Below are positions 1 to 63,100 of a DNA stretch of 64,000 bases, piece by piece; the stretch's first letter is position 1; every line of letters begins with the position of its first letter. The notes below the pieces were generated by a model that saw nothing but the letters and a program-made list of their open reading frames with translations, was not told the DNA's origin and ran no database searches. The DNA comes from Scenedesmus sp. ARA3. Taxonomy: Eukaryota > Chlorophyta > Chlorophyceae > Sphaeropleales > Scenedesmaceae. The DNA lies in contig RWJK01001657.1 in the NCBI GenBank assembly GCA_004335835.1, positions 1 to 64,000 of the forward strand, given 5' to 3'. The position numbers and the translations under genes are program-made.

Positions 1-48
<48 letters not shown>

Positions 49-1318
49 GCTGCTGCCGCAGGCGCCCCTGCAGGCCCCTCCATCATCCCAGGCAAAGGCA
101 ACCCCCCACCAAATGTAGTTAGCCCGGGCCTGCCTGGCTCTGTGCCTGAAAATGCACCTGATGGCCCTTTCGCTGCTGCTGCCACTGCTGCTGCTGCTGC
201 TGCTGCTGCTGCCGTAGGCGCCCCCGCAGGCCCCTCCATCATCCCAGGCAGAGGCAACCCTGGAGGCATTGACAGCCCGCCCCTGCCTGATCCTGTGCCC
301 GGCATCGACCCTGCGCCTGGCATCAACCCGGGAGACCTGGGCAGGATTGACAACAGGATGATGGGCGGTGTGAGCATGATGAGCAGCAACGCAGGTGGGC
401 AGAGTGGTGTTTCAGGATCTGGCCAGAAAGCAAGGGCAGCTGGTCTTACACTTCACATGCTTTCTGTGCAGGCGGTGCGTCCTGCAGCACGCTTGAGTCT
501 GAAAGTGCAGCCTGATGCGCCAGCATCCTTGTCCCACCAGCCTGACACACAACTGAGGTCCCTTGCACGCTGTTTGTATCCTGCTGCACACATCCTTGCA
601 GCTAATACGACACTGTGTGCGTTGTGGTGTTTTCTGTCTGTCTGTCTGAATGCAGGCGGTGGTGCGTCCGGATCGCCCAAGGCTGACGCCGCAGCCGTCG
701 CTCCCGGGCCTGAGCCATCAGGACCTCCCTCGGGCCAGCCTGAGGCCTGAGGAACTTGCCCACGCTTACAGCTGCATCTACTCCTTGTGTTTGCAAGGAT
801 GTTGGCTGATGCACACATCTTTGCAGCTAACACAACACTGCGTGCATTGTGGTGTTGTCTGTCTGCATGCAGGCGAGCCTGACCCTGCAGCCGGCGCCCC
901 CAAGCCTGAGGCCTCAGGACCCCCCTCAGACCAGCCGTCAGGCCAGCCTGAGGCCTCAGGCCCTCCATTCACTAGCTGATGCACACATCGCTGCAGCTAA
1001 CACACCGCTGCATGTACCGCGTTGTCTGTTTGTCTGCATGCAGGCGATGGTGTTTCCAGCACACCTGAAGTTGACCCTGCAGCCGGCATCCATAAGCCTG
1101 AGGCCTCAGGACCCCCCTCAGGCCAGCCATCAGCCCAGCCTGAGGCCTCAGACCTGCCGTCAGGCCAGCCTGGTGACGTGGCAAACCAAGAGGCAGCCGA
1201 GCCGCTGGTGGGCAAGGACAGGACAGCGGGGCCTGAGGCTATGGGGGAGGCAGGGGACAAGAAGCCGGAGGTTGGGGAGGCGGCAAACCCTGACCGCGTG
1301 CCGTTCTGGGGATCCTAA
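1..1318 (+). CDS. 3' part of a Pro/Ala-rich low-complexity protein gene with tandem terminal exons
   Basis: The gene is cut by the left window edge. Frame 1 is open from base 1: a long Ala run, then a Gly/Pro-rich segment in which the motif GAPAGPSIIPG occurs twice (about 60-100 and 210-250). A donor follows base 394 (GCAG|GTGGGC, one base left over). Four acceptor-led copies of a related last exon follow, at about 471, 656-750, 873-979 and 1044-1318. Each accepts the same phase and each ends in its own in-frame stop. The later copies encode PEASGPPSGQP-like repeats. The last copy is the longest and ends PNPDRVPFWGS-like before TAA. I recognise no domain. The exon-intron reading is inference; the tandem copies themselves are directly visible. 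Which terminal exon is used cannot be told from sequence. Confidence 0.55.
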
Positions 1319-1431
1319 TGGCTGGAAAGCTGCAAGCTGGCTAGCCATGGCTGGGGGACTCCCCCATGCTGAGCAAGCTCAAGCTCTGCCATGCAACAGC
1401 AGCAGCAGCAGCAGCAGGTGAACACTGCTGT

Positions 1432-1570
1432 GCCGCTGGTGGGCAAGGACAGGACAGCGGAGCCTGAGCAGATGGGTGGGGGGAAGATCTTTCAGATTCC
1501 GGAGGCTGGGCAGGCGGCAAACGCTGACCGCTTGCCGTTCTGGGGCTCTAATCTCTTTCCAGCTGGTTAA
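1432..1570 (+). pseudogene. Extra copy of the terminal exon end of the preceding gene
   Basis: This is a near copy of the last about 120 bases of the preceding gene's final exon. In the same reading it gives PLVGKDRTAEPE, then a diverged middle, then ADRLPFWGS, and it runs a few codons further to a TAA at 1568-1570. It sits after a (CAG)n tract and has no start of its own. It is either a spare terminal exon or a decayed duplicate. Confidence 0.6.
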
Positions 1571-2365: not shown

Positions 2366-5147
2366 CATTCACGAACCAGAACAACCTCCAAACTGTCAGC
2401 ATCAGCATTCATCCCATCACTCGGTGCTTCAACATCACTGTGTGCCGCAGCGCCTGCGGCTGCTGCTGCTGCTGCTGCCGCACCAGCCCTACTGCAGCAC
2501 AGACACTCCCACACTCCACGCGCAGCTGCAACTGCTGCTGCTGCCACCATTACTAATCCTACAAGCACTACTGCCCAATGAAAACCCCCTGTTGCCTGCA
2601 CTAACAAACCGATCACAGCAGGGCCAGCTAGGCCACCCATTGCCACAGATAGGTTGAACACAGTAAGACCGATACCAGCAGTAGAGGGCGGCACAGTGCG
2701 CGATGCTTCTGCTATCAGTGTGCTGTTGGCTGTGAAACCGGCGGTCAGAGCAAGACACAGCATAGCAAAGCCAGCACCGGGGTGTGTATTGTAAGCTGGT
2801 GTGAAGCACAGCAGGGGCACTGCAGCGACAGCCAAAGGCACCGCTACAAAGAACATCTTTGTGCGCTGCTGCTGCTGCTCAGGTGCAGCTGCATTGCTGC
2901 TGCTGCTGCTGCTGCTGCTGTTCTTCCTCCCAGATGCCAGCCACGCAACAAGTACTGTAGCTGCCGCTGCACCTATGTACGGCACAGTGGAGGCCAGCAG
3001 AGCTTGCGTAACATGCATGTCTGCAGCCGCCGCTGCTGCTGCTGCTGCACCAGCCGCATGTTCTCCATCAGCGCTGCTGTAGCTAGTACTGTTCCTGGTG
3101 GCCAGCACAGTTGCATGGCCCATGCTGCTGTGGCTGAGTGCTGTGCCGCTTTGTATGTTTGCAATCAGCAGCGGCAGCCAAGAGAATAACGAGGTCATGC
3201 AGAACATCCACAGGAACCCTAAACCACTGAAAAACAGCAGCGCAGGGTTGCGCAGCGCGGTTGCAAGGATGACTGGCAGCTGCCGCCAGCTGGGCAGCTG
3301 CTGCGCTGCTTGTGCTGCCTTGGGCGAGCCATGCACCTGTGGCAGCAGCAGCATGCCATCATGGGCGAGGGACACGCATCCACCACAAATGCGATCCGTC
3401 TACGACATATGTACGAATGCAGATGCCAGCACAGCCGCTGCTATCATCATGTGAGCGTGTAAAGCGTTCATAGAACTACTATGTTAGTAACACAGTGTTA
3501 GTGCAGAGGCTTGCAAGTTTGGTCTCAGCTGCCTGGGTTGCCTCCATCAACCCAGGCCATCGAGTTCTTTGTGTCACACTCTGCCTGCTCAACGGTGTAG
3601 CCTACATACGCCAACATTGCTTGAAGGTTCGCAACCATACATTAATTGTATCAAACTCTTTCCTTTTGCACAACAGTGGCTCACCTGCTCGTGCAGCAGC
3701 AGCTGCTGCTGCTCTGACAGCTGTCCAAACCCCAGTGGTGAAGCTGGCAGCCAGGCGACCATGGCAAAGCCCAGCAGCACCGATGGAAGGCCCTCTATCT
3801 GCAGGGGCAAGCAGCAGTGGCGAGCAGCAATGGCAAGAACATTCGAAGTTCAACTTTACCCACTCAAGCCACCTGCATTTGGCATCCAGCATCTTTATCA
3901 ATTCATTCATACATCGAGTCAGTCAGGCGAGTGCTGTATGATAGGGAGATGCAACGGACGGTCATGGCGGCAGCTGCAGCCGCTGCCACATGCAAGCAAC
4001 TGCAGCTCCTCAGACAGTGTTTGCAGTCTTGCCCCTTTCTCCCGGGTACAGCCACTGCCAGCCGCGTAGACCGCCCAGGCCGCCCGACATGCCATGCAAA
4101 ATGCCGGCACTGGCAAGAGGCGCCAGCATCACAGACAGCACTACATACTTTGAGAAGTGTTTTCATCCTGGCAAATGCTGCAGACAGGTGGATGCAGCAG
4201 ACAGCCGCTGCCACTTGCCAGCGACTGCAGCTGCTCATTCAAACTTTTCAAAGTAAACCACTCACCAGATAGAGCCACTGCCAGCCGCGCAGTCCGCCCA
4301 GGCCGCCCGACATGCCATGCAGAATGCCGGCAGAGGCAAGAGGTGCCAGCATCATCAACAACAACTGCAGCTGCCACGTGCCAGCGACTGCAGCTGCCTA
4401 TGAATTCTGCACAAAGCACTCAAAATCCTGCGGATGCACTCACTGCGAGAACTGCAGCTGCTCAATAGAACGTTTCAACCATCTTCCTCACGCACCAGGT
4501 ACAGCCACTGCCAGCCACGTAGTCCGCCCAGGCCGCCCGACATGCCATGCAGTGTAACTCGAGTCACACGAGCTACCAGCAGACAGGCGTGCCAGCGGCT
4601 GCAGCTGCGGAAATACAACATGTTCAAATCATTTTTCCACTCACCAGGTACAGCCACTGCCAGCCGCGTAGGCCGGCCAGGCCGCCCGACATGCCATGCA
4701 GGATTCCAGCACTGGCCAGCGGCGCCAGCATCATAGCAAAGACCTGCCCCAGCACATACACAGCCATAGGAAGGCCTCTTCTACTGCTTGGGTAGAACTG
4801 CGATATCAGATGCCACGTGCTGGTTGTTCCTGCAGCTTGAGATGCTCCCAGCACGACGCGCAGCGCGTACAGCTGTCGCCGCGTTTGAATCGTGCAATGT
4901 AACATGGAAATAACGCCCCAGCCGGACGTCATCGCGCCGAACCACCAGGAGCGGCCGCCGCGCTGCCGGACGGATATGAATGTCAGCGGCAGCATTAGTA
5001 GGCCAAATCCGAGGAAGTAAAGGCCTGAGGCTGTGCCGTACTGTGCTGCATTAAGCCCCAGATCTGAGTCGAGCTCCAAGGCAGCTGCAGCAGCACAGCA
5101 GGCACAGCCGGCAAGCAGGCAAGCAGGCAGGCAGGCAAGCAGGCAAG

Positions 5148-6376: not shown

Positions 6377-8040
6377 ATGGAGTTAGGCGGGCTGCGGGAA
6401 GCACGGCAGACTTTGCAAGGACAATTCCGGGGTAGGTCATCGTGATGGCTGGGGCCCTGGTTACAGTCACCCTGCTGTCGTTAGTCCTCGAGATGAATTG
6501 CTGCAAACCCTTCAGAAACAAGCTTGACAACTTAATATGTCTGCTGTTTCTCATCTGCAGGCAGGCAACTGCCTCTGATGTCGCATGCAGCGTCTCTTGT
6601 GCCGCGGCAGCAGCAGTGTTTTGTATGCAGGCCTAGGCCCTGCCAGATTTGTCACCAGCCACCACAGCAGCGGCAAAGTCCCCACCGTCAGCATACAGCA
6701 AGAGCAGCAGCACAAACAGCCGTCAGCTGCTCGAGTAAATTCAAACACCGCAGTGACAGCTCACTGGCTAGCATGCAGCACTGCAGCACAGCAGCAGCAG
6801 CAGCAGCAGCGGGAGCGTCACTGGTAGCTGCAAGGGCCGCAAATGGTGCTGCTGCTGTCACTTGCACGCAAGACGTGCAGCAGCAAGCAGCACACGACGA
6901 CTTGCCATTGAATGACTTGAAGATGGTGCTGTGCGTCAACCAGTCATTGAAGATGGGCAAAGGCAAGATAGGTGAGCAACGCACACCGATTGGACTTGTT
7001 GCCGTTCAATGAATAAAGGATTGGCCACGGCCTGACAGCACACATGCCAGGATGTGTCCGCCTGTGTTGCTCTGCTTGCCTGCTAAGGGCAGTGTATTGA
7101 TACACTGCACGTAGAGAACATGCACGTTTTCAGCGGTACTGGTCTGAAAGCCGGGCCCTGCGACCTCCATCTAATTGGTGCTGCCGCCGACACCACCGCT
7201 GCTGCTGCTGCTGCTTGCTGCACACCCTGTACACAGGCGCGCAGTGTGCGCACGCTGCAATCGGCGCAGTGCTGCAGCTGCTGGCGTCTGATGCGTCACT
7301 GTTTGTGCGCTGGGAGCAGTGCGGCCAGCGCAAGATTGTGGTCAAGGTGCAAGATGCGCAGTGCATGGTGAGCCCTGGCAGGCTCTTTCTTTGCATTTTT
7401 TTTTCTAAGCTAAATGTTGTGCAGCGCAAGATTGTTGTGAGGTGCAAGATGCGCAGTGCATGGTGAGGGCAAGGAAGATTCTGCCCAGCTGCTGATCATC
7501 ATACATGTTCTACAAGCAGCAGTGGTCAGCTTGCAGCTGGTCTTGCAATGCAGCAGCTGGCTTCTTGGAGCAAAGCCTGCAGTCTGCATGGCATGTGTTG
7601 CAGCAATTGTCGCAAGGTGGCAAATAGGTGAGGCGGCAGCTTGACCTGTGATACTTCAAATGTTCGCAGTGAACGCGGTTCTACACAAGCGCTGCTCAGG
7701 ATATGCGCGCCATGATGCTATTCTTATTGTCCGCTGAGCTGCAGCAAACAGCTCTGCCTTGTGGTCAGTGCAACGGATCACAGCACTGCTTCATTACACA
7801 CTGTGATTGGCAATCACATGCGGCATCACCTGACCTGCATCTGCTGCCTGTGCGCTGCATCCCCCGATCCTTTCACAGGAGGCGCTCGCTGCAGCAGCCG
7901 CCGCAGCTGGCTATGCGGCCTATATCATGCGCGATGCAGGGAGGACGCAGGTAGCGCCAGATTCACAAACCGTGCTGGCGCTGGGGCCAGCCCCAGAGGC
8001 TGAGATTGACAGGCTGACCGGCCACCTGCAGCTGCTGTGA
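6377..8040 (+). CDS. PTH2: Peptidyl-tRNA hydrolase 2 (4 exons)
   Basis: Exons 6377-6431, 6561-6971, 7237-7367 and 7879-8040 splice to 252 aa in consistent phase. The Pth2 fold occupies the C-terminal half: [18 protein letters not shown] then AQCAHAAIG across the exon 2/3 junction, then [13 protein letters not shown], and [20 protein letters not shown] in exon 4, ending TGHLQLL. The Lys of KMGKGK and the Asp of DAGRTQ match conserved Pth2 active-site positions. The enzyme releases tRNA from peptidyl-tRNA that dropped off ribosomes. The N-terminal about 130 residues are Gln/Ala/Cys-rich and could be an organelle leader (inference). The start was chosen because exon 1 from ATG 6377 joins exon 2 in frame; a hydrophobic ORF from ATG 6445 is the alternative. 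Confidence 0.85.
7421..7467 (+). repeat. Echo of PTH2 exon 3 end plus donor
   Basis: About 54 bases after the genuine exon 3 donor (7368) there is a near copy of its last about 40 bases. It includes CAAGATGCGCAGTGCATG followed by GTGAG, so the intron holds a second, intact-looking donor with matching exon flank. Confidence 0.85.
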
Positions 8041-8133: not shown

Positions 8134-8429
8134 GCCTGCCCCAGAGGCTGAGATTGACAGGCTGACTGGTAACCTGCAGCTGTTGTGAGCATCTACACAA
8201 TGACTGGACCAGTTGTGGTCCTTCCTGTGGCGGCCATCCTCAACGTTCTTGATCTTGCTAAGTCCTGGTTCTTGTCGCGGTTCCTGTCACTGTTGTCTCC
8301 ACATGTATAGTCAAGAGGTCCAATATCACGTGGTCCCTGCTGCATTTACCAGAGCGCAATCTGCTGGCGCTGGGTCCAGCCCCAGAGGCTGAGATTAACA
8401 GGCTGAATGGACATCTGCAGCTGCTGTAA
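8134..8429 (+). repeat. Two echoes of the PTH2 last exon, stop codon included
   Basis: Copies at 8134-8188 and about 8356-8429 re-encode [17 protein letters not shown] and PAPEAEINRLNGHLQLL and end in TGA and TAA. They lie downstream of the genuine stop at 8040. They could serve as alternative last exons only if an acceptor is present; I see none that is obvious. The TAA of the second copy sits inside a TGTAA, a possible polyadenylation signal. Confidence 0.8.
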
Positions 8430-9420: not shown

Positions 9421-9735
9421 TCCTCCTTCGCCGCTGCTGCGGCTACCGGAGCCGCCGTGCGGCACACCCAGGCAGTGCCACCACCTCAGCGTCGGGCCGC
9501 AGCAGCAGCTAGACTGTTGAGCGTCTGTAAGTCCTCCTGCGCCGCTGCTGCTGCTGCTGCTGCTGCCAGAGCCACCGCCGCGACCACGGCAGCCGCCGAC
9601 TGCGCCGCGCCGCTGGTCAGCTCTGCTCCAGTCAGTCCTACTTTGCTGCTGCTGCTGCTGCTGCTGGAGCCTCAGCCGCTGCAGCCGCCGCCGCCACCTC
9701 CGCCGCTACAGCAGCCGCCGGCTGCGCCTCTTCAG
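9421..9735 (-). repeat. Degenerate echoes of the USP terminal exon
   Basis: Downstream of the USP stop, about three diverged copies of its Ala/Pro-rich final segment follow. Each ends near a KxD-stop-like sequence, for example GCGAAGGAGGACTAG read on the minus strand at 9430-9416. Confidence 0.65.
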
Positions 9736-10005
9736 TCAGTCCTCCTTGGCTGCTGCTGCTGCTGCTGCTGCCGGAGCCTCAGCCGCCGCAGCCGCCGCCT
9801 CCGCCGCCACAGCCGCCGCCGGCTGCGCCGCGCCGCTGGCAGCAGCAGCAGGCAGCAGCTCTGCCTCTGCCTTAATGACAGCAACAGCACAGCCAAGGTT
9901 GTGTACGCAGTAGTCGCTGACAGACCCGAGGCCTACAAAGCCCATGAGGCTGCGCTTGAAGCTGCCCATTCCACGGCTGCCCAGGCAAACCAGGTCGATC
10001 TGTGA

Positions 10006-10038
<33 letters not shown>

Positions 10039-13000
10039 GTATGTAGGTGTCTGCAAAGCCCATCAGGGAACGCTTGAAGCTGCCCATGCCGCGGCTGCCG
10101 AGACACACCAGGTTGATCTGCAGCAGCAGCAGCAGCAGCAGCAGCAGGTATGCAGGTGTGAGCGACGTGCATGCGGGACTGCATGAAGCTGCCCAATGCC
10201 GCGGCTGCCCATGATGTACACAGCACGTCGGCCTGCAATGCAGCGACCAAAGCAGCGTCTGCAGCATGCATGTTTGACTGGCCCCCCTTCTGCTGGCCAT
10301 GCAGTCGCACCGAATACATCTTCAGCAGAAGGGGGAACACTCATGCATGCATGCTGCAGACTCTGCTGGGGCCGCCGCTGCATTGCAATACAATACGATA
10401 CCAATACCAATACCAAAGTATGGGACGGACCCACCTCAGGCACAAGCCCAGCGAGCCGATCTATCACTCATGATCATGAATACAATACAGTGCAACAAAC
10501 AGTACAGGACGGACCTGCCTCATGCACTTGCAGACCTGCACGGGATTGCTTGGCTCTCAAATGGGAAAGCTCAGCAAAGGTGCCCATCAAGCAGCACGTG
10601 TGGAAGATTTGTGCTGCAAATTTGCCACATACAGACCAAGCAATCCAAAATCCAAGGCTTGCCAAAGTAGGGCCACAGGTCCAACCACCAAGAAGCCAAG
10701 CAAGGATCATGTAATAACAGACATGTGGATATATTTCCTTTATATAAGCAAGTCAATTCCCTCCCCTTGTGGTTCTGAGATTACTTGCAAACCAATGCGC
10801 GCACATCATGACAGCCCACTCGCAGCATCAGGAGGCTGTTGGTAGGGATCTCTTGGTCCAGCTTTGCTTGAAGGTGCGCAGCTTTGCATTGATTATGCTA
10901 GTTCGTTGTGTTGGACTTTCCCCTCCCAACCACGGCAGCACAAAGCTCGTAATCATCACATCCCTGACAGTTCAGATGCAGCGCATGAGCTGTCAACATG
11001 CATCATGTCACACACCAGGTAGCGCTGTCACAGCACAGTGTGGCACGCCTCTGATGCCTATCCATGTGCAAGGAGCTGAAAACGACACCAACTAATGTCA
11101 TAGTATTACGCATCTCTCACCTTATGATCCTGAGCATACTTGCACACAGATGCGCCCACATCACTCGCCCCACCCTCCGGCAGCAGCGCAGAGCTGGTCA
11201 CGGCCACACCCCGCCAAATCCCGCTGCTGCTGCTGCTGCTGCTGCATGCACACTTCTCAGCAGCCCATGCAAACATGTGGGGCATTACAAAACACAAAGC
11301 CCGCACACTTCAGTGATTGTGATGGTACCTAATGATACAAAGGCAACCCCTCTCACCTTGTGGTCCTGAGCATACTTGCACACAGACGCGCCCACATCAC
11401 TCGCCCCACCCTCCGGCAGCAACGCAGAACTCGTAACCGTCACACCTTGCAGCCCGGCAGCAGCAGCAGCGCCCGAGATCGCCACTGCCGTCTTGGCTGC
11501 AAGGCTGCGGGCATAGTCCAGGCTGCGCTCAGTGCTAGCTTGCCACTGCTGAGCTTCAAGCGCTGCGACGGCTGCTGAGGTCTCGTCTAAGATCTGCAGC
11601 AGCAGCAGCAGCAGCAGCAGCAGCGTTGGAAGGCATAGTCCAGGCCGCGCTCAGTGCTAGCACGCCATTGCTGGCCTCTAGGGCCGCGACGGCTGCTGAG
11701 GTCTTGTCTAGAATCTGCGGCAGCAGCAGCAGCAGTGTTGAGAGGCATAGTCCAGGCTGCGCTCAGTGCTGGCACGCCACTGCTGTGCCTCAAGGGCTGC
11801 AACGGCTGCCGATGTCTCGTCCAGGATCTGCGGCAGCAGCAGCAGCAGCAGCGGCAGCAGCAGCAGCAGCAGTGTTAAACGAGGCATAGTCCAGGCTACG
11901 CTCAGTGCTAGCACGCCACTGCTGCGCCTCTAAGGCGGTGACTGCTGCTGAGGTCTTGTCCAGGATTTCCGGTGACAGCAGCAGCTGCAGCAGCAGTACC
12001 GTACCGGGTACGGCACAGGCAGCGCCACCACCACCACATGCACCCAACAAGCTATCAAGGACAACAACATTAAGCCCACTATACTCATGACACCAACACC
12101 ACAATGTATGCGTTTGTTATCTCCCAAAGCAACCCACCGGGTAGGGCACAGGCAGCGCCACCACCACCACGTGCACCTCATCTCTGCTGCGCAGCACGTG
12201 CGCCTGCAGCCAGCCCACCGCGTGCTGGCTGTGCACGGAGTCGTCCATGGCCAAGCACACCTTGCGCTGCGGGGCCTGCGGCAGCAGCAGCAGCAGCAGC
12301 AGAAGCAGCAGAAGCAGCAGCAGCAGCACACAGAGGCTGCTTTCAGCCAGACTGTCACGAACAAGCCAAGGCAATGTGCAGTAGGCCTGGCAACGAACCA
12401 CGCACGGTGGAGCAGTACACACATGCACGTCAGCACCTGCTGCTGCTGCTGCCGCGCCGTCACCATGCACCACCAGCACCGGCACGTGCGGCTGCTGCTG
12501 TCTTTGAATCCGCTACTCTACCAGCTACACTTGCTGCTGCTACACCTGCTGCTGCTGCTGTCCACTCACCTCGGCTCTGCTGCTGCTGCCGCTCCATCCC
12601 CATGCAACAGCAGCAACGGCACATGCAGCTGCTTCTGTCTTGCACTATCTACTACATTGGCTGCACCTTCTGCTGCTGCTGCCGCTGCTGTCCACTCACC
12701 TCGGCATCTGCTGCTGCTGCCGCTCCGTCACCACGCACCACCAGCACCGGCACATGCAGCTGATGATATATGTCGACACTCCATTAGCTACACCTGCTGC
12801 TGCTGCTGCTGCTGCCAGCTCACCTCCGCATCTGCTGCTGCTGCCGCACCATCCCCATGCACCACCAGCACCGGCACATGCAGCTGGTGGATGACGTGTA
12901 CCAACTACTATAGCAGCCACGCCTGCCGCTGCTGCTGCTGCCAACCCACCTCGGCATCTGCTGCTGCCGCTCCATCCCCATGCAACGCCAGCAACGCCAG

Positions 13001-13182
13001 CAACGGCACATGCAGCTGCTTCTGTCTTACACTATCTACCACACCAACTGCACCTATGGCTGCTGCTGCTGCTGCCAACCCACCTCAGCATCTGCTGCTG
13101 CTGCCGCGCCGTCGCCATGCACCACCAGCACCGGCACATGCAGCTGGTGGATGACTCACACAGCCTGCCAAGCACCTCAACA

Positions 13183-13219
<37 letters not shown>

Positions 13220-16200
13220 ACCCACCTCAGCATCTGCTGCTGCTGCCGCTCCATCGCCATGCACCACCAGCACCGGCACATGCAGCTGGTGGATGACTCA
13301 ACACAGCCTGCCCAGCACCTCAATACCTGCTGCTGCTGCTGCTGCTGCTGCTGCCACACCCCAGCTGCCAGCTCACCTCGGCATCTGCTGCTGCTGCCGC
13401 GCCGTCACCATGCACCACCAGCACCGGCACATGCAGCTGGTGGATGACGTAGTCACTCACACTGCCCAGCCCCACAAAGCTCATCAAGGACCTGGCAGCA
13501 GCAGCAGCAGCAGCATGTGGCAGCACTTATGTCTTGCTGCAACGATGGGTTGAGTATGCTCACACTGCCCAGCCCCACAAAGCTCATCAGGGACCTGGCA
13601 GCAGCAGCAGCAGCAGGGTACGGCAGCAGCAGCAGCAGCAGCAGCGGCAGCAGCAGGGTACGGCAGCAGCAGCAGCAGCGGCAGCAGGGTGCGGCAGCAG
13701 CAGCAGCAGCGGCAGCAGTTTGCGGCAGCAGCAGCATATAGCAGCATCACGATCTGGATGCAGCTGCTGGTTCTTCACTCATTCATACTGCCCAGCTCAG
13801 CAACACTTGTAAACGACCTGCGGTGGCGGCATACATACAGTGAACCAGCAGAAACACACCAGAAGCAGTGATGCTGGCACGTGCTGCTGCTGCCGCTGCC
13901 GAATTCCCCGCGCTTTGCCTCTGGTGCATATGTCTGATTAAAGTGCATATTTGCAGTGAGCCTGACACCGCTGCAAGCGTATGCACCAAAGCCAGCGGCA
14001 TTGTGTGCTGTGTTGCGATAATCAGCAGACAAACTTTCAGTGAGCTGGTGCCCGGATACTAGCAGCAACTCAACGAAAACTTGTCTGTTGGTGATCGTAA
14101 CATGACACACAATACTAACTCTGGCTTCAGCAGCAACAAATGCAGCTACTACAAGTCTGATGCAGAGACAACATTTCTTGCCATGACAGCATCAACCTAA
14201 CACACCAGCAGACTTGACTAGAAGTGGCAAGGCTGGCGTTTTCGATGTTTGTTCTTCCGCCCCCCTACGGCACGTCATGAACATGCTTGTGCAGAAGGCA
14301 CACATCAACCATGCTGCTGCTTCACATGATGTCGTCATGATCAGCACTGCATGCTACATGTTATCTTGCGGTTATATTGTTCCTGCAAACATGTCTTATG
14401 TTGCTCCTGCGCACATGTGTTATTAACTTGTCATCGGTCCGTTGGTTCCTGCCACCTCTGCATGCTGCCCAGCCGTGCTGCCAATGCTGCTTCGACTCCA
14501 CTGCAAAGAACTCTTCAAGTGGATGCTGCCCAGCCGTGCTGCCAATGCTGCTTCGACCCCACTGCAAAGAACTCTTCAAGTGGATGCTGCCCAGCCCTGC
14601 TGCCCATGCTGCTTCGACTCCACTGCAAAGAACTCTTCAAGTGGATGCTGCCCAGCCCTGCTGCCAATGCTGCTTCGACTCCACTGCAAAGAACTCTTCA
14701 AGTGGATGCTGCCCAGCCCGGCAGGTACTGTTATGATGTTATGTCACTTTATTATGTCACATGTTACTTTTGCGCACCTCTGGATGCTGCCCAGCCCCCT
14801 GCTGCCAATGACCACCATGCCAGCTCCCTTCGCCTTGGAAAACTCCACGATGCTGTCACCCACGCCTGCAGGCACATGTTACAATTGAAGCACAGTTGTA
14901 ATTCATGTTACACGACAAACAAACGTAGCAAGCACCAACAAGAGGCTTATACGGGTCACACAACACACAGTCATCTGAGCAGCAGAGTAAGGCGTGACAC
15001 ATCTACAAGGTTGCCGCATGGAAGGTTGCAACTGCTAGCAGCAGCAGCGGGCAGCTTCAGCAGCATCTTGTTAGCTGCCCAGGTGCTTCGCTGCAAGGAA
15101 ATTTAACAAGCACTTCCTGCAAGAGATCATCAGGTGCGCTGCGAATCAACCACAGACAAGCAAGTGCATGGACAACTGCAGCGCGCTGCACACGGTTGAA
15201 AATCAACCACGCCATCGGCAAGATGATAGAATCAGCTCAAGATGGTGGGACATGAAGAAGCAGCTGGCTCCCACCTGATGCGCCTCCAGCAGCTGGCAGT
15301 GCATGAGCATGCAGGCAAGACTTGGTCACCTGCACCACACACGCAATACAAGCAAACATGTACAAAATCAGGCAACCCGTGATGTAATCATTTATTTTTC
15401 ATCAGTTGCATGCTTGCAGGCAATGAAAGCATCCAAGAAACTTGAGTAACAACGATTTGGTGATGTGTTTGTTTGCAGTGACTATTGCGTGACTGGCGGG
15501 GTCACAAAGCAAGCTGTACATCAGGCCTGCTGCTGCTTTTTAAGGCGCACGTTTGCACTTTTGCAAAGTGTTGCACAGTGTGCTGTTGGGGCAGGTAACA
15601 AGCAGAGCACCAGTGACACATCTGGATGCAATGTCCCACACGTTTTGCCAAAGCATAGGACAACCTGCCAACACTTATACACAGCTTCCCACTAATGAAT
15701 TTAAATGTCAACGAGAGTAAGCAAGTACAGCAAGTAAGTCTCACCCCGGCCTCCAGCGCCTCCTGCACTGCTTACAAATGTTTTTTTTGCCAAAGCACAA
15801 GCATAGCATAGATTTAACTGCCAAAAATACTATCAGACCTTAGAGCTCGTAGTATTTTCAAGTCAGCTAGTACAGCAGGTGAAAACTTGAAAACTATTCA
15901 GCGCACAATCAAGCAATGCTGGACCAGGAGAATGTAAATCAACCTGCCAGTCCAACACCAACATACTATGCATCACCCCTGCATCACCAATAACCAAGCA
16001 ACAATAAAGCAAGGCAAGCATAACTGGCTCACCCCGGCCTCCAGCGCCTCCTGCACTGCTTCCCGCAGCACTTCTGTAGCATGTGCCTCGTCATGCTGCT
16101 TCTGCGCCTCCCACTGATGCGTGACAGCTGCCACTGCTGCTGCCGTTGCAACTGGGGCCACGGGATACACATTCATAGCCACTGGTGGCAGCACTGCAGG

Positions 16201-19327: not shown

Positions 19328-21305
19328 ATGGGTATCAAGGACACCCCGATGTTCCGCAAGTGGGCGCGCAAGGCGTTTGACGAAATCGACATGGACAAGA
19401 CGGGCCGCGTGGACTACAAGGAGGTGCGGTGTTGCTGCATTGCAGAGTGCATTTTCATACCATATGACAGCTGCATTGCAGAGTGCATTTTCATACCATA
19501 TGACAGCTGCAGAGACACTCAAGTGCAATCTAGTCAGGACAAAGTGGGCCGCGTGGACTACAAGGAGGTGCGATGAGATGGATGGAATATCATGGTTGTG
19601 AACAGGATTTGTTGGTTGTGGATGAAGGCAGATAAGCATGATCAGACAGGCGATGTGGACCACAAAGAGGTGCAGTACAAATGGCGGTCACATGCGGTTT
19701 AGCTGCCAGTAGTGTGCAGCACAACAGCAACTGCAGCATCGCAGCTGGACACGGCAGCCGGCATGCTCCGGCATTTGTTTGCTGCATATCCGACCAGCTA
19801 TACCCCTACAGTGTCTTGATGTGCTGTGGAGGTGGTTAGCAGGGTTGTCTGCCCACCCTTCTGCTGCAGGTGTGCATTGGCATCCTGAAGATTTATGACA
19901 GCCTCAACGCAAAGTTCCCCGCACATGTCATCGCACCCAAGCGGTGAGAGCAAATGTAACATGCTGACTTGGCGCCAGCAGCGGTCGCAAAGTGCAGTGT
20001 GCAGTAGCAGACACATGACACGTGCAGCCTCAGCTGCAGTGCTGCTGCCTCCGTGCCATATAGTACCAGCTCACCTGGACAGCCAGGTTGTCGCAGCTTC
20101 AGCAATCGCTGACACAGCAACAGCACTAGCAACAAAAAAAAGGGCGCTGACTGTTTGCATGCTGCCCTGTGTCTGCATTTTGTTGCTGCAGCGTGGAGAT
20201 GCTGGACATGTGCAGGAAGTACGACAAGGATGGCAACGGCACCATTGAGTTCGAGGAGTTCCTGGAGATGAGCAAGGTGCGGGCCTGGTTACTACAAATG
20301 CTGCGCAAAGTGCCAGCAGCTGGTGGCATGTGCATGCAGACTTTCAGGCACGCTGCAGCAAGCATGGTTCGAGGAGTTCCTGGAGATGAGAGAGGTGCGC
20401 ATCTGGCTGTGAATGAGCAAGGCTACCGCAGCAGGCATGGCAGCAGGCTGTTGAATGCAGGCCCCCGATACGAGTTGAGTATGAGGAGTTTCGGATCCTG
20501 GAGATGAGCAAGGTGTGGTGATGCTGATTGCTGCAGACTGCTGCGCAGGCAGCTGCAGGCATGAGCACGCAGCATGCGTGGCACGCAGCATGCGCAAGCA
20601 GGCCGACACAATCAGGGTGCAGCAAGCATGGTTGACGAGCTCCTGATGATGGCCAAGATGTGGCGCTGGCCTGAGCAAGGATGCTTTCGGGCTTTGCTGC
20701 GGTTGACTGGCGGCAGGACAGTGCAAAGCAGCAGACACAGGTATTGCATGCGACTTGCGACTCAGTGTGGTGCTGCATGCTGGCTGCAGGTGCTGGTGGG
20801 CAGCAGGAAGAACTTCACAGAGAGCTTGGTGTGGAAGTACTTCTCAGGTAAGGATCGGCAGCAGCAGGCAGCAGCAGCAGCAGCAGCAGCAGCAGGCAGC
20901 AGCTTGAGGTTAGTCGGCTTGCTCAAGTGCTCACCATGACAGCGTCACAGCTGGCACCATTGCTGCAGCGCAGGTGCACACAAACTGCAGAAATAGACGT
21001 TGCAGGTTGCAGGTCTGCAGAGCTGGATCACAGCTTGGAGCAATGCCTGCAGGGGCCCCCTTGTCGCTGCACCTGAACCTGGCGTTGCTGCCACTTAATT
21101 GTTACACCTTGACTCTGTCAACCCATCAGCAGCATCATCAACAGCCTCCTTATATATAGTCCATCTTCTGGCTGGTGTGCCGCACACGCATTGGCAATGC
21201 TGCCAGGGTGGCATGCCAGGCCAGCCGCCTTCAACATTGCTGTGGGCAGCCGTGGTCATCCCATGCGGGCGCCTAACATGCTGGCTGGCTGTCGCCGCCG
21301 CCGCC

Positions 21306-21714: not shown

Positions 21715-21763
21715 CGGGCATCAATGAGATGGGCATAAAGCCAATGGCGGCAAAGACAGACTG
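21715..21763 (+). repeat. Echo of EF-hand gene 3' end with stop
   Basis: Re-encodes EMGIKPMAAKTD plus TGA, 70 bases after the genuine stop. Confidence 0.85.
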
Positions 21764-22536
21764 ACCGAATCATGACCAGATTGGTTTGCTGACCAGATGG
21801 CTGCATTGATAGTCGTGTGGCTACTGTGTAAGGATGACATTGAGCGTGGATGGCTGGAATGAGGCAACAAGAGGTGCAGTGTATTTCTGCAAGCTTTGGC
21901 AACTTCTGCACAGCAGTGACTGCTGATGATCATCATCATCAAGTCATCGCAGGAACAGGAGCATGACTGCAAATTGATACTTCAAGCAGCAGGTGTGGCA
22001 GTGGCTGTAGTGGCCCTGCCCTGCACCTGCTACCAGCCTCAGGCTGCCAGGCTGGCAAGAGTTCTGCTGGCAGTAGATCAGCAGTGCTAGCAGCACTTGT
22101 TCGCCCTCACTCCAACACTAACTTCAAATGCACGGTAGTGTAACTTGCCACCTCCAAAGCAGCGGCTCACTGTGCAGCTGCAACAGCACAGCCATCATCA
22201 CCACCAGCTGATGCACCAGCATTGTGCTGGCAGCAGTGTTGGTGCTGCAGCAGTGAGCAGGCCGGCACTGTGTCAAAACATAATTTTCTTGCAACAACTT
22301 GTGTTCCATGTTCAATCGGCCCTTTTTGGCTCGTGTTACATGTCACAAAAGCATCGAGGGTTCGGGAGTGTTCTTTGGCGGGCCTTGTTCGCGTGCAGGG
22401 CTACACCTCCGCACTTTCAGCCAAATCATCGTTTTGTTGCTTGAAAACTGTCGGTGTTCTTTCGAGCTGCCTCAAAGCTGCAGCACCTGAAGCACAGGCA
22501 GTACCAACAGAGCAGTAGCACCAGCAGCACAGCAAC
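21764..22536. other. Intergenic spacer upstream of AHA1 gene
   Basis: No gene recognised. It contains the probable polyadenylation region of the EF-hand gene (TGTAA at 21827) and the promoter and 5' UTR of the AHA1 gene. The last 30 bases are CAG-rich. Confidence 0.4.
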
Positions 22537-34133: not shown

Positions 34134-34213
34134 TGATGGCGGCAGGGTTCGAACCTGCGCCCTTGCGGACTGGAGCCTAAATCCAGCGCCTTAGACCACT
34201 CGGCCACGCCATC
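34134..34213 (-). tRNA. tRNA-Leu (anticodon UAG)
   Basis: Read on the minus strand, the 5' GATGGCG pairs with 3' CGCCATC, and the discriminator base is A. The D-arm has TGGCCGAGTGG and AAGGC. The anticodon stem CTGGA/TCCAG closes the loop TTTAGGC, so the anticodon is UAG (Leu). A long variable arm (GTCCGCAAGGGC) is typical of class II tRNA-Leu, and the T-arm has GGTTCGAACC. No intron; the 3' CCA is not encoded, as is normal for a nuclear gene. Confidence 0.95.
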
Positions 34214-58100: not shown

Positions 58101-58839
58101 TTTTGTTTGGCAATGGTCAGGCTCCATTTGAAGTGGCCTCTTGTGGTCGCAGCAGAATGTGCTTGCGTTCATGAGTGGGCAGGCAGGTGTTACAACTGCT
58201 ATGGTGTGTAGGCAGCGTCTCCTGCACAGCTGCACAGCTGCTTCGGGAGCTTTAGCGGCCGTCATTGCTGAATTGCCGCCAAACCCGCATATGTGTTTCA
58301 AACTTGCTTGATGCCTGCCGGCTGCTGCAGCTTCACCTGCACAAAGTAGCTTACACAGCAACACAGTATGCGCCCCAGGTGTTGATTAACTACCCTGTCA
58401 ATCAACACCTGGGGCTCATACTGTGCTTGCTGTGTAAGCTACTTTGTGCAGGTGAAGCTGCAGCAGCCGGCAGGCATCAAAAGCTGCGTGTTGCTTGCAC
58501 TAAGGACCCCTCGCTGCCACAACAACTCAAGGATGACGCCCCTTTCTGCACATGATTTTGCAGGTTAAGCTGCAGCAGCCGGCAGACATTGAGGGCAGCG
58601 TGTCACTCCGCTCAGAAGAAGACGGCTTCTGGAGCCGACACGTCAGCGCCATGACAGCAGCACTGCTGGCGGCCGGCGGTTACACCCCCGAGTCTGTTGA
58701 CGAGTACTTCTACCAAGACAGCTGGCAGGGGCCCAGCAGTGCGGCTGGCAAGCTGCTGCTGCTGTTTGGTGATCCGTTGCAGCAGGTAGATGTGCCGTGG
58801 ACACCCACCACACTTGTGCAAGACTGGACGCTGGCGTGA
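54497..58839 (+). CDS. Unrecognised conserved-looking protein gene (at least 5 exons; 5' end unresolved)
   Basis: Confident exons: up to 55319 (open from ATG 54497), 56183-56270, 56745-56887, 57883-58091 and 58564-58839. All phases fit, and the product is 512 aa if read from 54497. Conserved-looking blocks are LDPSLAAAFIDAVYQT, ERYKLQTQEYKYYA, NQDRMLALPYLEDNSGG, YVLWKVVARHLPTPQQRTTF, CGWQLVLGSLPGGWP, and SEEDGFWSRHVSAMTAALL to the end LVQDWTLA. I do not recognise the family. An alternative first exon from ATG 54810 (MHRFACCLPLVRIARVAREE, organelle-leader-like) would need a 38 nt intron. Intron 1 carries a hAT-type MITE, and exons 2, 3 and 5 have echoes. TGTAA occurs at 58965. Confidence 0.6.
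55485..55730 (+). repeat. Two to three 5' echoes of exon 2 of the unrecognised gene
   Basis: Copies near 55488-55520 and 55594-55626, and a weaker one near 55700, repeat the acceptor side and AANQxRxPA-like coding of the exon that genuinely starts at 56183. Confidence 0.7.
55802..56133. mobile_element. hAT-type MITE, 332 bp, with TIRs and 8 bp target-site duplication
   Basis: Perfect 14 bp terminal inverted repeats, CAGTGCTGTGATAA at 55802-55815 and its reverse complement at 56120-56133, are flanked on both sides by the same 8 bases, acaaaaag (55794-55801 and 56134-56141). An 8 bp target-site duplication and TIRs beginning CAGTG are the signature of hAT transposons. There is no transposase frame inside, so it is non-autonomous. 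The ends carry GCCGGCGC-type inverted subrepeats and the middle is A/T-rich. It sits in intron 1 of the unrecognised gene. Intact TIRs and duplication imply recent insertion. Confidence 0.9.
56441..56486 (+). repeat. 3' echo of exon 2 of the unrecognised gene
   Basis: Repeats GLSNSTYFNFV plus AG|GTGATG, 180 bp beyond the genuine donor at 56271. Confidence 0.85.
56975..57430 (+). repeat. Three 3' echoes of exon 3 of the unrecognised gene
   Basis: Copies near 56980-57020, 57146-57230 and 57340-57425 repeat LLQQLxPELLTSLxEAAxAS and the donor. The following intron piece (gccgcagctgcgcccagcaacgc and flank) is copied as well. Period is about 110-190 bp. Confidence 0.85.
58310..58478. repeat. 170 bp foldback palindrome containing a copy of an exon start
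   Basis: Left arm 58310-58387 and right arm 58400-58478 are reverse complements except for one indel and one or two mismatches, with a 12-base loop. The right arm includes CAG plus GTGAAGCTGCAGCAGCC, a copy of the acceptor and start of the last exon (genuine at 58564). Confidence 0.9.
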
Positions 58840-59870: not shown

Positions 59871-60099
59871 TCACGTGGTGCGGACGTTGCGCCGCGCGAC
59901 GCCGATCTCGCAGGCGTTGACCTTGGCCGCAAAGCGCAGCGAGCACAGCGACTCCGGCGCAAAGTCGGAGGTGGGGCTGATGTTGACAAACATGAGCGTC
60001 TTGGCGTCGCCGCCCAGGCAGGGCTGCAGCAGCCAGGTGAGCTTGCTGTTGCGGTAGGGGATGTGGCTCTCCTTGTTGGCCAGCGACACAATCACGTCG

Positions 60100-60145
<46 letters not shown>

Positions 60146-63100
60146 AGTGGCGAAGCAGTGGATCGAACAGCGTCAGCGACGTGACATGCATGGAAGCAGA
60201 GCCTGCGGCAGTCTGCGCCGTCTGAGACTGCCGCTAGCAGTTACTAATGACTGTAATGGCTGATGACGCTGCACCCACGGCCTCTGCAGAAGATATTGAT
60301 ACTAGTAGAGCACTCATCCCAGTGCGCTGCTGCTGCTGCTGCTGCGTCCACCTCACTCACCAAGCGCGCTGAATCTCTTGTTGATGGCCTGCGCCTCCTT
60401 GAGCCGCTGCCACTGCTAATGGCCCACCCACCCCATGCGATGCTGCTGCCACAATCGAGTGTACCACCCCACCCCACTCACCCAGCGCGGACAGGCTCTT
60501 GTTGATGGCCTGCGCCTCCTTGAGCCGCTGGCCCGTGGCGCCGCTCTCCTTCACGCGCTCACTGCCCGCCAGGTCGATCAGGTTGAGCACGCCAGACACC
60601 TGGGGGCATGCAATTCGGGGTGACGTTTAGGTTCAAAGCGAGGTGACACGTAGATTACAAAGCAATGTGTGTTGAAGCAGACAAGGACGCCAGGCTTTCT
60701 GGTGATGGTAACAGTGTGTGCCCGCGCACCTTGAGCTTGCTGGAGTCATTGGTGCCCTCAATGCGCAGCGTGAACACTGCGTGGCTGCGGCTGCTCTGCT
60801 CATTGAGCTGCGTGCAGCCCACGCTGCGCTTCTCCATCGCGCGGGACAGCAGCTCCTCCACGTCCTGCAGGGGCGGCAGCAGCAGCAGCAGTGCAAAGCG
60901 GCGTAATGTTAGTGCTGCATATGCATCCAGTGTCGGTGCATGCAGGCGCTGGTGCATTAGTAGCAGTGCATGCATGCAGGCAGCAGCTTGGTGGGTGGGC
61001 GTCATCATCATCGTGTCAGAAAAACAAGCCATAGCAAAATCCCGTTTTGCCCAGCGGTCCACTGCTAATGGTCCGCTGCTAATGGTCATTTGCATTGCGG
61101 ATTTGTGTACATCACAGGCTCAGCACCACGATACACGACAGCGCCACATGGCCTAGGCGTAGCGGGCTGACAGCTGCTGGTTGGCCGCACCTGTGGCGTG
61201 TTGACGTCGATCAGCGTGAGGTCAGACACGCTGGTGCCGCCGTTGGTGTCGTGTACCACCTGCAGCCGAAGCAGCAAACAGCGCAGCCTAAGACAAGCGG
61301 GAAGATGTCATGCATGACCAGCTTCTGTGTGCACCGGCAAGGTGCTGGCAGACGTTGCAGCTCACTACATCCGTGTGTGAGCAAGTGCTGCAAGTAGGCT
61401 CTCTCAGGCTCTGCCCACCTTGTGTGAGCGGCCGTCCGGCAGCTTCTTGCGCGCCAGCAGGTCCTTGTAGTCCTCGTTGTAAATCTCCAGCATGCTGGCC
61501 TGCATGGCAAAGCGCCAGCCCTGCTTGCCCAGGCTGCGGCTGCTCTCAAACACCTGCAATGCGGGGCAAGTGGACGTTGGGCAGGCACAGCTCTCAGCAA
61601 GGGTGGTGTTGCTGACGAACTACTGCCCTGGCTGCGGCTGCTCGCATACACCTGCAGGCCAGAAGAGGCTAGAGGTGTTGTGCACAGGGCGCTGAGCAAT
61701 TGGAGGAGCATTACCAGCAAACCTGGGGAGAGGCTTAACAAACAGAACCCTGCCGCAACACTGTGGAAGGCTGCTGATGGCTGCCGACATGCACGCGTCT
61801 TGCTGCCCAGAGTTTTTTTCTGAGATGTGAGCCAGCAGGGAAGTCTGCCCACAGCTCTTCTGGGAAGCAGAGCATCAGTTTGTACAGTCTGCTGCATTCT
61901 GCATACTCCGCAACAACTGCTCCCTGGAGCCACAACGCACCTGCGCCATTGCGCGGGGGATGATGCCCCTGTTGTCGTCGTTGCCAAACATGGTGTACGT
62001 CTTGCCGCTGCCTGTCTGGCCGTACGCAAAGATGCACACCTGGAACACAACACAGAACAGGAATCCAGCAGTAGCAAGGAAGCTGAAAGGTCAGCAGCCT
62101 CAGCATTGTCACGCACACAAGTGCAGAAGTGTGCGCTCCAGCTGCACACAGAGGGCATGCAGGCTGTGATGCACACTCATGCTCTGGGTCTGTTTTGCAG
62201 CACTCAGCATGTCATTGCACAGCCTTCATAATACAAGAGAGGGGGATAAAAAGAGACTTTGAGCAGGGAGAAGGAATGCTTGCACATACTTTGCAGCACT
62301 GCGCCACACCATTGCTTGCAGGTGAACGATTGTGCATCTACCGTGCCCAAAACTGTCATATTACAACATACCTTGTGGCCGTCCAGTGCTGACTGGATGA
62401 GCTCGCTGATCTCCTCAAACACCGCGCCCTGCCCGGCAGCCGGCCCAAACACCTTGTCGAACGCAAAGCTGTGCCGCTGCGGCGCCTGGCCGGTGAGGCT
62501 GCCCGGCACGGTGATGTCCAGGCCGCGGCCCAGCAGCTCGCCTGGGGGCGGCGGCAGCAGCAGCAGCAGCAGCAGCAGCAGGCATACTTGCGTATCACAC
62601 GATAACCACAGCAGCGTTGTTTAAGGGGAGTTTTGACTGGGAGCTCCAGGCCAGCATGCACCTAAACAGGCCAGCATAGAAAATGTTGTTCTGCAGTAGC
62701 AGCAGCTCTCTTGGGTAACTGCAACAAGCGCTTGGGCTCGCCGCGGTCGGGGCAACTCTGTGGCCAGCGCGCCGCTGCAGCTGCATGTAAAGCACATCTG
62801 CTGCAAGTCATAGCAGTCTGCACAGGCTGCTGGGCGTGCGGGCAAAGGCTTGCATGCTATATGGAATGTCTGCTGCTGCTCACCGCTGTTGGGGAACTCT
62901 GTGGCCAGCGCTCCGCTGCCGCCGTCGGCCGACATCTCGCTGCTGCTGGGCGGCCTCACACGCGCAAACACGCGGATGTTGCCCTTCAGCTCCTGCAGGC
63001 GGCAGCATCATGTTACGCCCGATACATACTCCACTCGCCCAAAAACTGAGAACCTCAACCAGGAGCCATCGACAGGCTCAAAGGGGCAGGAAACGTCCAA

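Follow-up and report, generated by a model that had tools for sequence, protein, structure and literature searches.

Echoes of exon edges in the introns and 3' flanks of genes of a Scenedesmus alga

The window, that is, the whole stretch of 64,000 nucleotides analysed here, raises the question of why the introns and 3' flanks of its genes hold so many partial copies of the neighbouring exons, and of how such copies (echoes) arise and persist. The sequence-only reading had counted upwards of 50 copies spread over nine or more genes, which proved about right: a strict search found 49 copies adjoining 16 exons in 8 predicted genes, and self-comparison of the window added at least six copies and two genes, the six lying beside exons 19328-19423, 20192-20276, 21489-21643, 58564-58836, 61419-61553 and 62884-62992. 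The copies are mostly 30-90 bp long, some about 200 bp, and lie about 100 bp or more from their own exon edge. Self-comparison returned 132 direct repeats less than 3 kb apart as against one inverted and one distant repeat. Twenty other loci yielded 199 near direct repeats, five inverted and eight far direct ones, two of the 20 being without any such repeats. In a 314-kb sample, consisting of the window and 25 further 10-kb pieces, 516 direct pairs were found less than 2 kb apart, together with 56 farther apart and 42 inverted, CTG repeats being included in the last two classes. The echoes at genes of the window other than the SETD3-like gene are as follows.

880..941, plus: acceptor-side copy of predicted exon 1044-1297 (strict edge search)
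4496..4552, minus: donor-side copy of predicted exon 4645-4767 (strict edge search)
4266..4355, minus: donor-side copy of the same exon (strict edge search)
4045..4131, minus: donor-side copy of the same exon (strict edge search)
7422..7467, plus: donor echo of PTH2 exon 7270-7367 (self-comparison and edge search)
8134..8193, plus: stop-codon echo of last PTH2 exon 7879-8037 (self-comparison and edge search)
8362..8427, plus: second echo of the same last exon (self-comparison and edge search)
10051..10117, minus: acceptor echo of USP exon 9739-9999 (edge search)
9648..9727, minus: copy downstream of this last USP exon (strict edge search)
12005..12044, minus: copy downstream of predicted exon 12138-12275 (strict edge search)
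13559..13594, minus: acceptor echo of exon 13377-13491 (edge search)
12440..13297, minus: array in which the end of the same exon is copied six times, at 12440-12497, 12576-12631, 12700-12765, 12824-12897, 13084-13155 and 13226-13297 (strict edge search)
19537..19575, plus: donor echo of EF-hand gene exon 19328-19423 (self-comparison)
20367..20399, plus: donor echo of exon 20192-20276 (self-comparison)
21718..21765, plus: stop-codon echo of last exon 21489-21643 (self-comparison)
25036..25069, plus: donor echo of AHA1 exon 24881-24963 (edge search; gene model checked with P0064)
25141..25173, plus: donor echo of the same AHA1 exon (edge search)
30020..30083, plus: donor echo of predicted exon 29526-29868 (edge search)
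58444..58491, plus: acceptor echo of exon 58564-58836 (self-comparison)
60348..60396, minus: copy downstream of kinesin exon 60428-60599 (strict edge search)
61624..61656, minus: acceptor echo of kinesin exon 61419-61553 (self-comparison)
62736..62781, minus: donor echo of kinesin exon 62884-62992 (self-comparison)

A 59-bp "repeat family" at 62308-62366 was set aside, being a kinesin exon with many relatives.

The exons of the SETD3-like gene (34763-42447, minus strand) were placed by spliced mapping of the T. obliquus protein P0001, which gave ten pieces, one of them spurious with a stop, and the edges of exons 7 and 8 were then set by hand. All 29 intronic copies in this protein-mapped gene extend to an exon edge, a single edge having up to seven different copies, and 1828 of its 6296 intron bases are made of copies. 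Gene finders are misled by such echoes, the self-trained predictor having given 18 exons where the protein supports nine (two edges hand-set). All features listed below are on the minus strand; exons are from spliced mapping and echoes from edge search unless stated.

42391..42447: exon 1
42240..42281: donor echo of exon 1 (identity 0.93)
40976..41257: exon 2
41321..41392, 41457..41524, 41601..41662, 41736..41793 and 41861..41931: acceptor echoes of exon 2
40830..40913: donor echo of exon 2
40685..40767: further donor echo of this exon (identity 0.75)
40432..40632: long donor echo of exon 2, covering aa 47-113 over about 200 bp (mapping and edge search); its portion 40432-40521 has six synonymous and no non-synonymous differences
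40286..40373: donor echo of exon 2
40026..40229: long donor echo of exon 2, aa 46-113 (mapping and edge search)
39878..39944 and 39731..39815: donor echoes of exon 2
39068..39179: exon 3
39235..39281, 39345..39377 and 39433..39479: acceptor echoes of exon 3
38947..39001 and 38831..38873: donor echoes of exon 3
38542..38702: exon 4
38368..38424 and 38128..38194: donor echoes of exon 4
37760..37894: exon 5, without detected echo (mapping and edge search)
36745..36876: exon 6
37053..37132, 37307..37366 and 37550..37609: acceptor echoes of exon 6
37185..37244: further acceptor echo of this exon, with 12 synonymous differences and one non-synonymous
35979..36122: exon 7 (left end hand-set, the mapping having overrun it)
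36277..36322, 36398..36443 and 36532..36578: acceptor echoes of exon 7
35747..35836 and 35598..35633: donor echoes of exon 7
35167..35433: exon 8, without detected echo (right edge hand-set, about 3 nt uncertain)
34763..34861: exon 9, without detected echo (mapping and edge search)

The association with exon edges was also observed throughout the 314-kb sample, in which 257 confident exons were kept out of 424 predicted. Edges other than those of actin, SETD3 and AHA1 come from the self-trained predictor, which was trained on masked sequence; as actin served as a training seed, its recovery is no independent check, and the independent checks are the AHA1 (P0064) and SETD3 proteins. Probing with exon edges detected 171 copies in the DNA nearby, all outside the 257 exons; 148 of them finish no more than 2 nt from the edge of the exon where 30.1 were expected, and among blocks shorter than the probe by 20 nt or more the same holds for 110 of 129 (10.6 expected). 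Repeat pairs touch 114 of the 257 exons, and among 245 short pairs, 88 join a copy at an exon edge to one lying outside exons, compared with 25.0 under rigid shifting (sd 5.7, maximum 46, 300 trials). Copies thus cross coding edges well above the chance rate, in support of the sequence-only reading, and the echoes are real and extend beyond the window, whose DNA is that of T. obliquus or of a very close strain. Echo-like internal repeats also occur in ORF fragments of two other algal assemblies, 51 aa apart in P0058 (a 230-kb metagenome contig) and 31 aa apart in P0059 (a 3-kb contig), these being the only two of 134 scanned homologues with any such repeat. A single bad assembly is therefore an unlikely cause, since an artefact of this kind should be missing from independent assemblies.

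The copies show a strong polarity. Donor-spanning pairs have the copy downstream rather than upstream in 98 cases to 10, and acceptor-spanning pairs have it upstream rather than downstream in 94 to 7 (314 kb; 311 rows, which are repeat pairs, so that arrays are counted several times), whereas copies wholly within an exon show none (22:20). The arrangement had been read from the window alone, together with the suggestion that the outermost donor or innermost acceptor preserves the reading frame; the polarity agrees with this, and homologous proteins hold each SETD3 segment only once. A spacing of 100-140 bp, also proposed, describes the nearest copies but not the whole set, since 100-160 bp accounts for 146 of the 516 direct pairs, with further peaks near 240, 375 and 500. 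Last exons do recur beyond the stop, both in the window (7879-8037 and 21489-21643) and at other loci. Fifteen downstream rows at eight terminal exons, with the same echo repeated in two rows, represent such stop-codon echoes, and 13 of them approach the CDS end to within 6 nt; 12 of these 13 have their end in the range from 6 nt short of it to 25 nt beyond, while one continues for 217 nt. It was also observed that stop-codon echoes keep this alignment though no splice site exists there.

The explanation preferred here, to which we give an even chance, is a joint one: tandem duplication over coding edges, selection that spares frame-neutral copies and continued exchange between exon and echo. 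Short tandem duplications, with a unit mostly of about 90-160 bp, would arise frequently in and near genes, and selection would keep those crossing a single coding edge (acceptor, donor or stop), the protein being unaltered because the innermost acceptor, outermost donor or first stop still functions, so that the copies survive as echoes. Spacers would later diverge, and the exon-derived repeat would go on recombining with the working edge and with sister echoes, direct repeats some 100-150 bp apart being open to unequal exchange, conversion or slippage. As a result of such recombination the exon part would evolve in concert and show coding selection, and the intron part would become unrecognisable. 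The copies themselves, their polarity and edge alignment, the synonymous bias and the independence of exon part and spacer are observed; birth by break repair or slippage, and continuing exchange, are what we infer, no exchange event having been witnessed directly.

Exon-derived copies stay nearer to the working exon than the surrounding DNA does. Their identity is about 0.9 with or without aligned flanks, so that the copies are more alike than their flanks allow, as under concerted evolution. The sequence-only reading had taken intron bases in the copied unit as the mark of tandem duplication; this is supported for the 26 of 72 echoes (30 when another span is compared) in which the intron part is alignable, but not for the rest, in which it is unalignable despite equal exon-part similarity. 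Alignability shows no trend with exon-part identity among the 72. The match enters the intron by 3-30 nt in 40 of the 74 nearest echoes and by at least 35 nt in 34. Among 179 echo-echo pairs (exon parts taken by score, and 18 masked pairs set aside), the 33 with aligning flanks have an exon-part identity of 0.905 and a flank identity of 0.823, and the 128 with non-aligning flanks an exon-part identity of 0.882. Plain neutral tandem duplication over splice junctions, with frame-breaking events purged and neutral decay afterwards, would account for polarity, frame neutrality and the 26 echoes whose intron part aligns at roughly the expected identity. It is nevertheless unlikely, given the 46 of 72 echoes without an alignable intron part though their exon part is equally similar, the independence of exon part and flank seen among echo-echo pairs, and a dN/dS between exon and echo of 0.25 (148 echoes; 1.57 and 2.15 in shifted frames) instead of the value near 0.5 expected of dead copies, which was reasoned rather than simulated.

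Differences between exon and echo are mostly synonymous. Changes private to a single echo are synonymous in 131 of 274 cases (27.7% expected), while 17 of 52 changes private to the exon are non-synonymous, which exceeds the expectation for well-conserved exons and suggests that exon and echo calls may be swapped in some cases. The bias depends on case selection, the flank-alignable set having 122 synonymous to 76 non-synonymous differences and BLAST-defined long tandem copies 31 to 52. Among pairs selected because the match runs 3-30 nt into the intron (short-extension pairs below), for which codon rates come from ungapped matches only, certain echoes are plainly decaying, such as that of actin (exon start 5512) with no synonymous and three non-synonymous differences. 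Serial births from a silently changing exon, or copies from diverged alleles, could also produce the synonymous bias.

Replicative template switching or patch-type break repair, in which the copied exon edge would be attached by way of unrelated filler and the spacer would be foreign from the start, is an improbable alternative to the joint explanation. A rice paper on "patch-mediated" events is reportedly to be grouped with break repair as an origin of small tandem duplications. Template switching or patch repair with foreign filler would fit spacers that are unalignable even beside echoes of 96-100% identity, and a homology that stops abruptly a few nt past the junction in short-extension pairs, a set chosen for that feature. 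On the other hand, 45 of 62 spacers from short-extension pairs have no match elsewhere in the 314-kb sample, 11 match within their own locus and six have only short weak matches. For one young spacer, together with its flank, no second source was found in the genome; elsewhere, however, a flank recurs within its own intron. A dispersed element as spacer source was dropped, none having been found in either search. Residual spacer homology also argues against foreign filler, as spacers without clear homology are still slightly closer than same-gene controls (39 cases, p 8e-5), the similarity fading by about 50 nt. So does the resemblance to true intron ends: echo flanks have their composition, the pyrimidine fraction at -25..-16 in short-extension pairs being 0.635 in echo flanks, 0.623 in real ones and 0.504 in the interior. 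This last result is in tension with the joint explanation as well, since old unused flanks should have lost their pyrimidine richness, yet retain it. A mini-exon or inserted-intron model was also rejected, the inner echo ends of short-extension pairs showing no GT/AG enrichment compared with random positions.

An origin from diverged alleles or a hybrid partner, by unequal haplotype recombination or chimeric assembly, seems decidedly improbable. The combination of about 0.2 divergence at silent sites and few changed amino acids, as in the exon 6 echo with 12 synonymous differences to one, would suit it, but the up to seven different copies per edge, clearly non-functional echoes (actin) and the presence of echoes in two other assemblies would not, and no long second haplotype was found among the candidates scored, which in two of the searches were 40 of 321 and 40 of 197.

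Splice sites of echoes in short-extension pairs have scores similar to those of real sites, with donor medians of 6.88 (echo) and 6.64 (real), 6 of 36 being lost, and acceptor medians of 5.26 and 5.86, 2 of 26 being lost. Exons with a donor echo end in AG in 42 of 55 cases versus 84 of 162, and those with an acceptor echo start with GT in 15 of 45 versus 39 of 194, an excess for which better exon calls alone may account. In-frame alternative exon edges were dropped as a candidate because the spacings fall about equally into the three remainders modulo 3 (for 0/1/2, donor 13/10/13 and acceptor 8/9/9). Direct selection of echoes for use, whether as alternative edges of exons, as points of recursive splicing or as decoys in regulation, is very improbable, for although the predicted site strengths, the synonymous bias and perhaps the AG/GT excess would favour it, the even spread of spacings modulo 3, the closure of 41 of 62 frames across the echo, the position of stop-codon echoes in 3' flanks and the single occurrence of each segment in homologous proteins do not.

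As to intron growth, local direct repeats make up 19.8% of confident intron bases and 49 of 142 confident introns carry an echo, so that much of this material lies in introns; that this is a main way by which introns grow, as had been proposed, is unproven, about 80% of confident intron bases being without a recognisable local repeat. According to the available text of a published comparison, T. obliquus has longer introns than its relatives (mean 462 bp versus 230-302) and a lower coding share (PMC5966456), both of which echo formation may help to explain. If the joint explanation is true, intron length in this lineage would be driven in good part by a simple process, coding-edge duplication filtered through splicing, an unusual route for intron lengthening and for sequence exchange with exons. 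The echoes would then be dated fossils of exon sequence, would allow recombination over short tracts to be measured between repeats separated by about 100 bp, and would supply many natural candidate decoy splice sites for studying spliceosome choice. More doubtful is the further idea that introns in this algal family are a living archive of exon edges, whose truncated, untranslated copies trade sequence with the exon so often that coding selection maintains them, introns then growing out of exons and returning silent changes to them.

No account of exon-edge echoes was found among the titles, opening lines of abstracts and passages covered, subscription journals being mostly outside that coverage. 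Introner elements, which are dispersed and similar to one another, represent another lineage-specific intron change in algae, but echoes are local and gene-specific, the 314-kb sample showed no dispersed family, and introners were rejected as a source given the one distant repeat in the window and the six of 62 spacers with only short weak matches in other loci. Intron gain by AGGT tandem duplication, as outlined in the text available, likewise has a coding-sequence duplication tolerated through splicing; it converts coding sequence into a new intron, whereas in the alga existing introns are lengthened and the splice site lies inside the unit. This model was rejected, as the echo stands apart from the edge and contains a splice site, and its inner ends lack donor or acceptor enrichment. 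In the potato RdRp gene, the available part of the report describes one young tandem duplication over an intron-exon boundary that made a new intron (PMC4974935). There too the unit crosses the 3' splice site and takes its splice signals from the parental intron; the alga differs in having 114 of 257 exons touched, arrays, exon-like sequence that is kept, and no extra exon in the proteins checked. Direct repeats at intron/exon borders have also been described, in the passages available, as 4-30 bp long (mean 11.4), flanking both intron ends and interpreted as insertion footprints (PMC11782384); the algal copies reproduce one edge, are mostly 30-90 bp and lie about 100 bp or more away. Fill-in repair of breaks, which yields small tandem duplications, is a plausible origin of short direct duplications, although as presented in the available text (PMC8355091) it has neither the coding-edge preference nor the later concerted evolution that the algal echoes suggest.

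The sequence-only reading had taken the window-wide exon-edge echoes (truncated near-copies of an exon edge in the neighbouring intron or 3' flank) for tandem duplications across splice junctions, and a refutation test run on a 314-kb sample showed that duplications in that sample are indeed commoner across coding edges than elsewhere. Rigid shift of 245 short repeat pairs predicted 25.0 pairs joining an exon edge to non-exon DNA (sd 5.7, maximum 46, 300 trials) against 88 observed, with 17 inside-exon/non-exon pairs observed and 24.1 expected. Probes of at most 90 nt taken from every exon edge found 171 copies in neighbouring DNA; 148 end within 2 nt of the edge, where random placement would put 30.1, one at 3-6 nt and 22 further in. 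Self-comparison of the window gave 132 close direct repeats against one inverted and one distant, and 20 other 10-kb loci gave 199 direct, five inverted and eight far repeats, with none in two of the 20.

At least one repeat pair was found at 114 of the 257 confident exons, and the 311 pairs touching such exons are strongly polar. For pairs spanning only a donor the other copy lies downstream in 98 cases and upstream in 10; for those spanning only an acceptor it lies upstream in 94 and downstream in seven. Copies fully within an exon have partners in both directions (22 downstream, 20 upstream), and 24 pairs span both exon edges. The actin gene, identified beyond doubt by its protein, has two exon starts echoed 119 and 122 bp upstream and one exon end echoed 220 bp downstream.

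These sample statistics depend on predicted confident exons; the SETD3 exons were taken from protein in the SETD3, edge-copy, dN/dS and shift analyses. The gene finder, a small hidden Markov model with actin exons among its seeds, was trained on the 314 kb (the window and 25 loci) and predicted 424 exons there, 257 of them confident. It recovered six of the seven actin exons to the base and missed the first, while AHA1 provides an independent check of one whole gene model. The window (57% G+C), from an 87-Mb assembly in 1567 contigs, derives from Tetradesmus obliquus (Scenedesmaceae, Sphaeropleales) or a strain very close to it, since database proteins closely match two genes:
34763-42447: SETD3-like gene, matched exon by exon by P0001, a T. 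obliquus protein of 461 residues, with about four residue differences.
22537-25791: AHA1 model, 99% identical over its full length to P0064, an AHA1 protein labelled Tetradesmus.

Other features were also seen in the window:
1943-2365: a 212-bp unit present twice in tandem, with 100% identity between the copies and no predicted exon involved, apparently a very recent event; the unit somewhat exceeds the usual echo spacing.
14462-14719: 61-bp unit, 4.2 copies at 97%, adjoining predicted exon 14778-14865 of a universal stress protein gene.
19434-19511: perfect 36-bp tandem repeat in the stretch that separates an exon from its echo, within the first intron of an EF-hand gene.
34134-34213, minus strand: tRNA-Leu gene of 80 nt, the sole RNA family match at gathering score.
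62308-62366: kinesin exon with 87-92% DNA identity at at least 30 other genome places (40 of 321 candidates scored), which suggests a large kinesin family.

CAG/CTG triplet runs are very common throughout the window and the 25 loci, and masked simple repeats make up 9.6% of the 314 kb, partly within predicted coding exons.

The SETD3-like gene carries 29 echoes at six of its nine exons, occupying 1828 of 6296 intron bases. All extend to the exon edge (28 at 0 nt, one at 1 nt), and the largest arrays hold seven downstream copies of one exon end and five upstream copies of one exon start. On inspection every segment occurs once in P0001 and in three related proteins, P0002-P0004 (P0003 has a transcript-style name), and a scan found no internal repeats in the four, so the splice sites used are the outermost donor and the innermost acceptor.

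Repeat spacing has its main peak at 100-160 bp and further peaks near 240, 375 and 500; echo spacing is evenly distributed modulo 3, and inner echo ends show no extra splice sites. Exon edge and echo are separated by 53 nt or more in donor-side cases (37, with a single exception of 29) and by 35 nt or more in acceptor-side cases (35). Among the 74 nearest echoes, the match extends into the intron by 3-30 nt in 40 and by at least 35 nt in 34. The boundary of the copies looks like the coding edge rather than the splice signal, because stop-codon copies without any splice site show the same limit. Among 15 such downstream matches (eight terminal exons), 13 extend at least to within 6 nt of the CDS end, 12 of them stopping from 6 nt before to 25 nt past it and one continuing for 217 nt; the remaining two end 55 and 76 nt inside. 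At another locus (L029:540-1140) one exon start occurs in five copies with two alternating spacer types, which suggests that a unit holding two copies was later duplicated.

Duplication across the coding edge accounts for polarity and frame neutrality. Alone, it leaves unaccounted for the similarity of exon parts beside lost spacers. An alignable intron part, at identities consistent with ordinary decay, is present in 26 of 72 echoes (30 of 72 with another comparison window). Of the 22 echoes with an exon identity of 0.93-0.97 it is present in 10, and of the two above 0.97 in neither; echoes whose intron part does not align have exon parts just as similar. When echoes are compared with one another, their exon parts are 0.905 identical in the 33 pairs whose flanks align and 0.882 identical in the 128 pairs whose flanks do not. 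Distance by distance, echo flanks that do not align to the real flank have the same base composition as true intron ends, and unalignable flanks are still slightly more alike than other same-gene junction flanks (mean 0.27 vs 0.20, 39 cases, p 8e-5), a residual similarity that fades by about 50 nt.

Divergence between exon and echo is 0.067, 0.051 and 0.184 at codon positions 1, 2 and 3 (62 junctions, ungapped matches), and in SETD3 the differences comprise 147 synonymous and 76 non-synonymous changes. For the 148 echoes that reach an edge, dN/dS comes to about 0.25, against 1.57 and 2.15 when the frame is shifted; it is similar for alignable flanks (0.24, 36 echoes) and unalignable ones (0.30, 77), and 0.11 for 24 echoes with masked flanks. 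A copy that never had a function, next to a fully conserved exon, would be expected to give about 0.5, by reasoning rather than simulation. Of 274 changes found in a single echo of a group, 131 are synonymous against 27.7% expected, an excess that can partly be silent exon changes recorded at successive births. Clearly decaying echoes such as those of actin, however, run counter to constraint, as do the 31:52 synonymous to non-synonymous count in BLAST-defined long tandem copies and the 17 of 52 exon-private changes that are non-synonymous. Ongoing exchange with the exon-derived repeat as its anchor, a reading for which we see an even chance, would keep the exon part alike while the spacer is lost; it would also account for the excess of synonymous differences and for flanks that look functional, and would require no outside sequence source. 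Plain decay, filler-type repair and diverged alleles are possible alternatives.

Echoes occur beyond this one assembly. Internal repeats were found in only two of 134 scanned homologous proteins, P0058 and P0059. Both are fragments of ORFs in other algal assemblies and run from exon into echo or from echo into exon. In P0058 (a 230-kb metagenome contig) the SETD3 exon 7 end recurs after 51 residues (153 bp), and in P0059 (a 3-kb contig) an exon start recurs 31 residues (93 bp) upstream. Their identity to the window's protein over short stretches, 84% and 68% respectively, shows that they belong to other species.

That echoes are the main way in which introns grow goes beyond the evidence, but they are a major contributor to introns, as judged from repeat coverage, echo-bearing introns and published intron lengths. 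In 50.7 kb of confident intron, 19.8% of the sequence belongs to local direct repeats; the share is 20.3% in confident exon and 6.5% in intergenic DNA. Echoes are present in 49 of 142 confident introns, whose median length is 378 bp with an echo and 300 without; the shortest tenth, in contrast, is at 72 bp among introns with an echo and at 161 bp among the rest. In a published comparison, introns average 462 bp in T. obliquus, whereas the means for three other Sphaeropleales and Chlamydomonas are 230-302 bp, and T. obliquus has the lowest share of coding sequence (PMC5966456).
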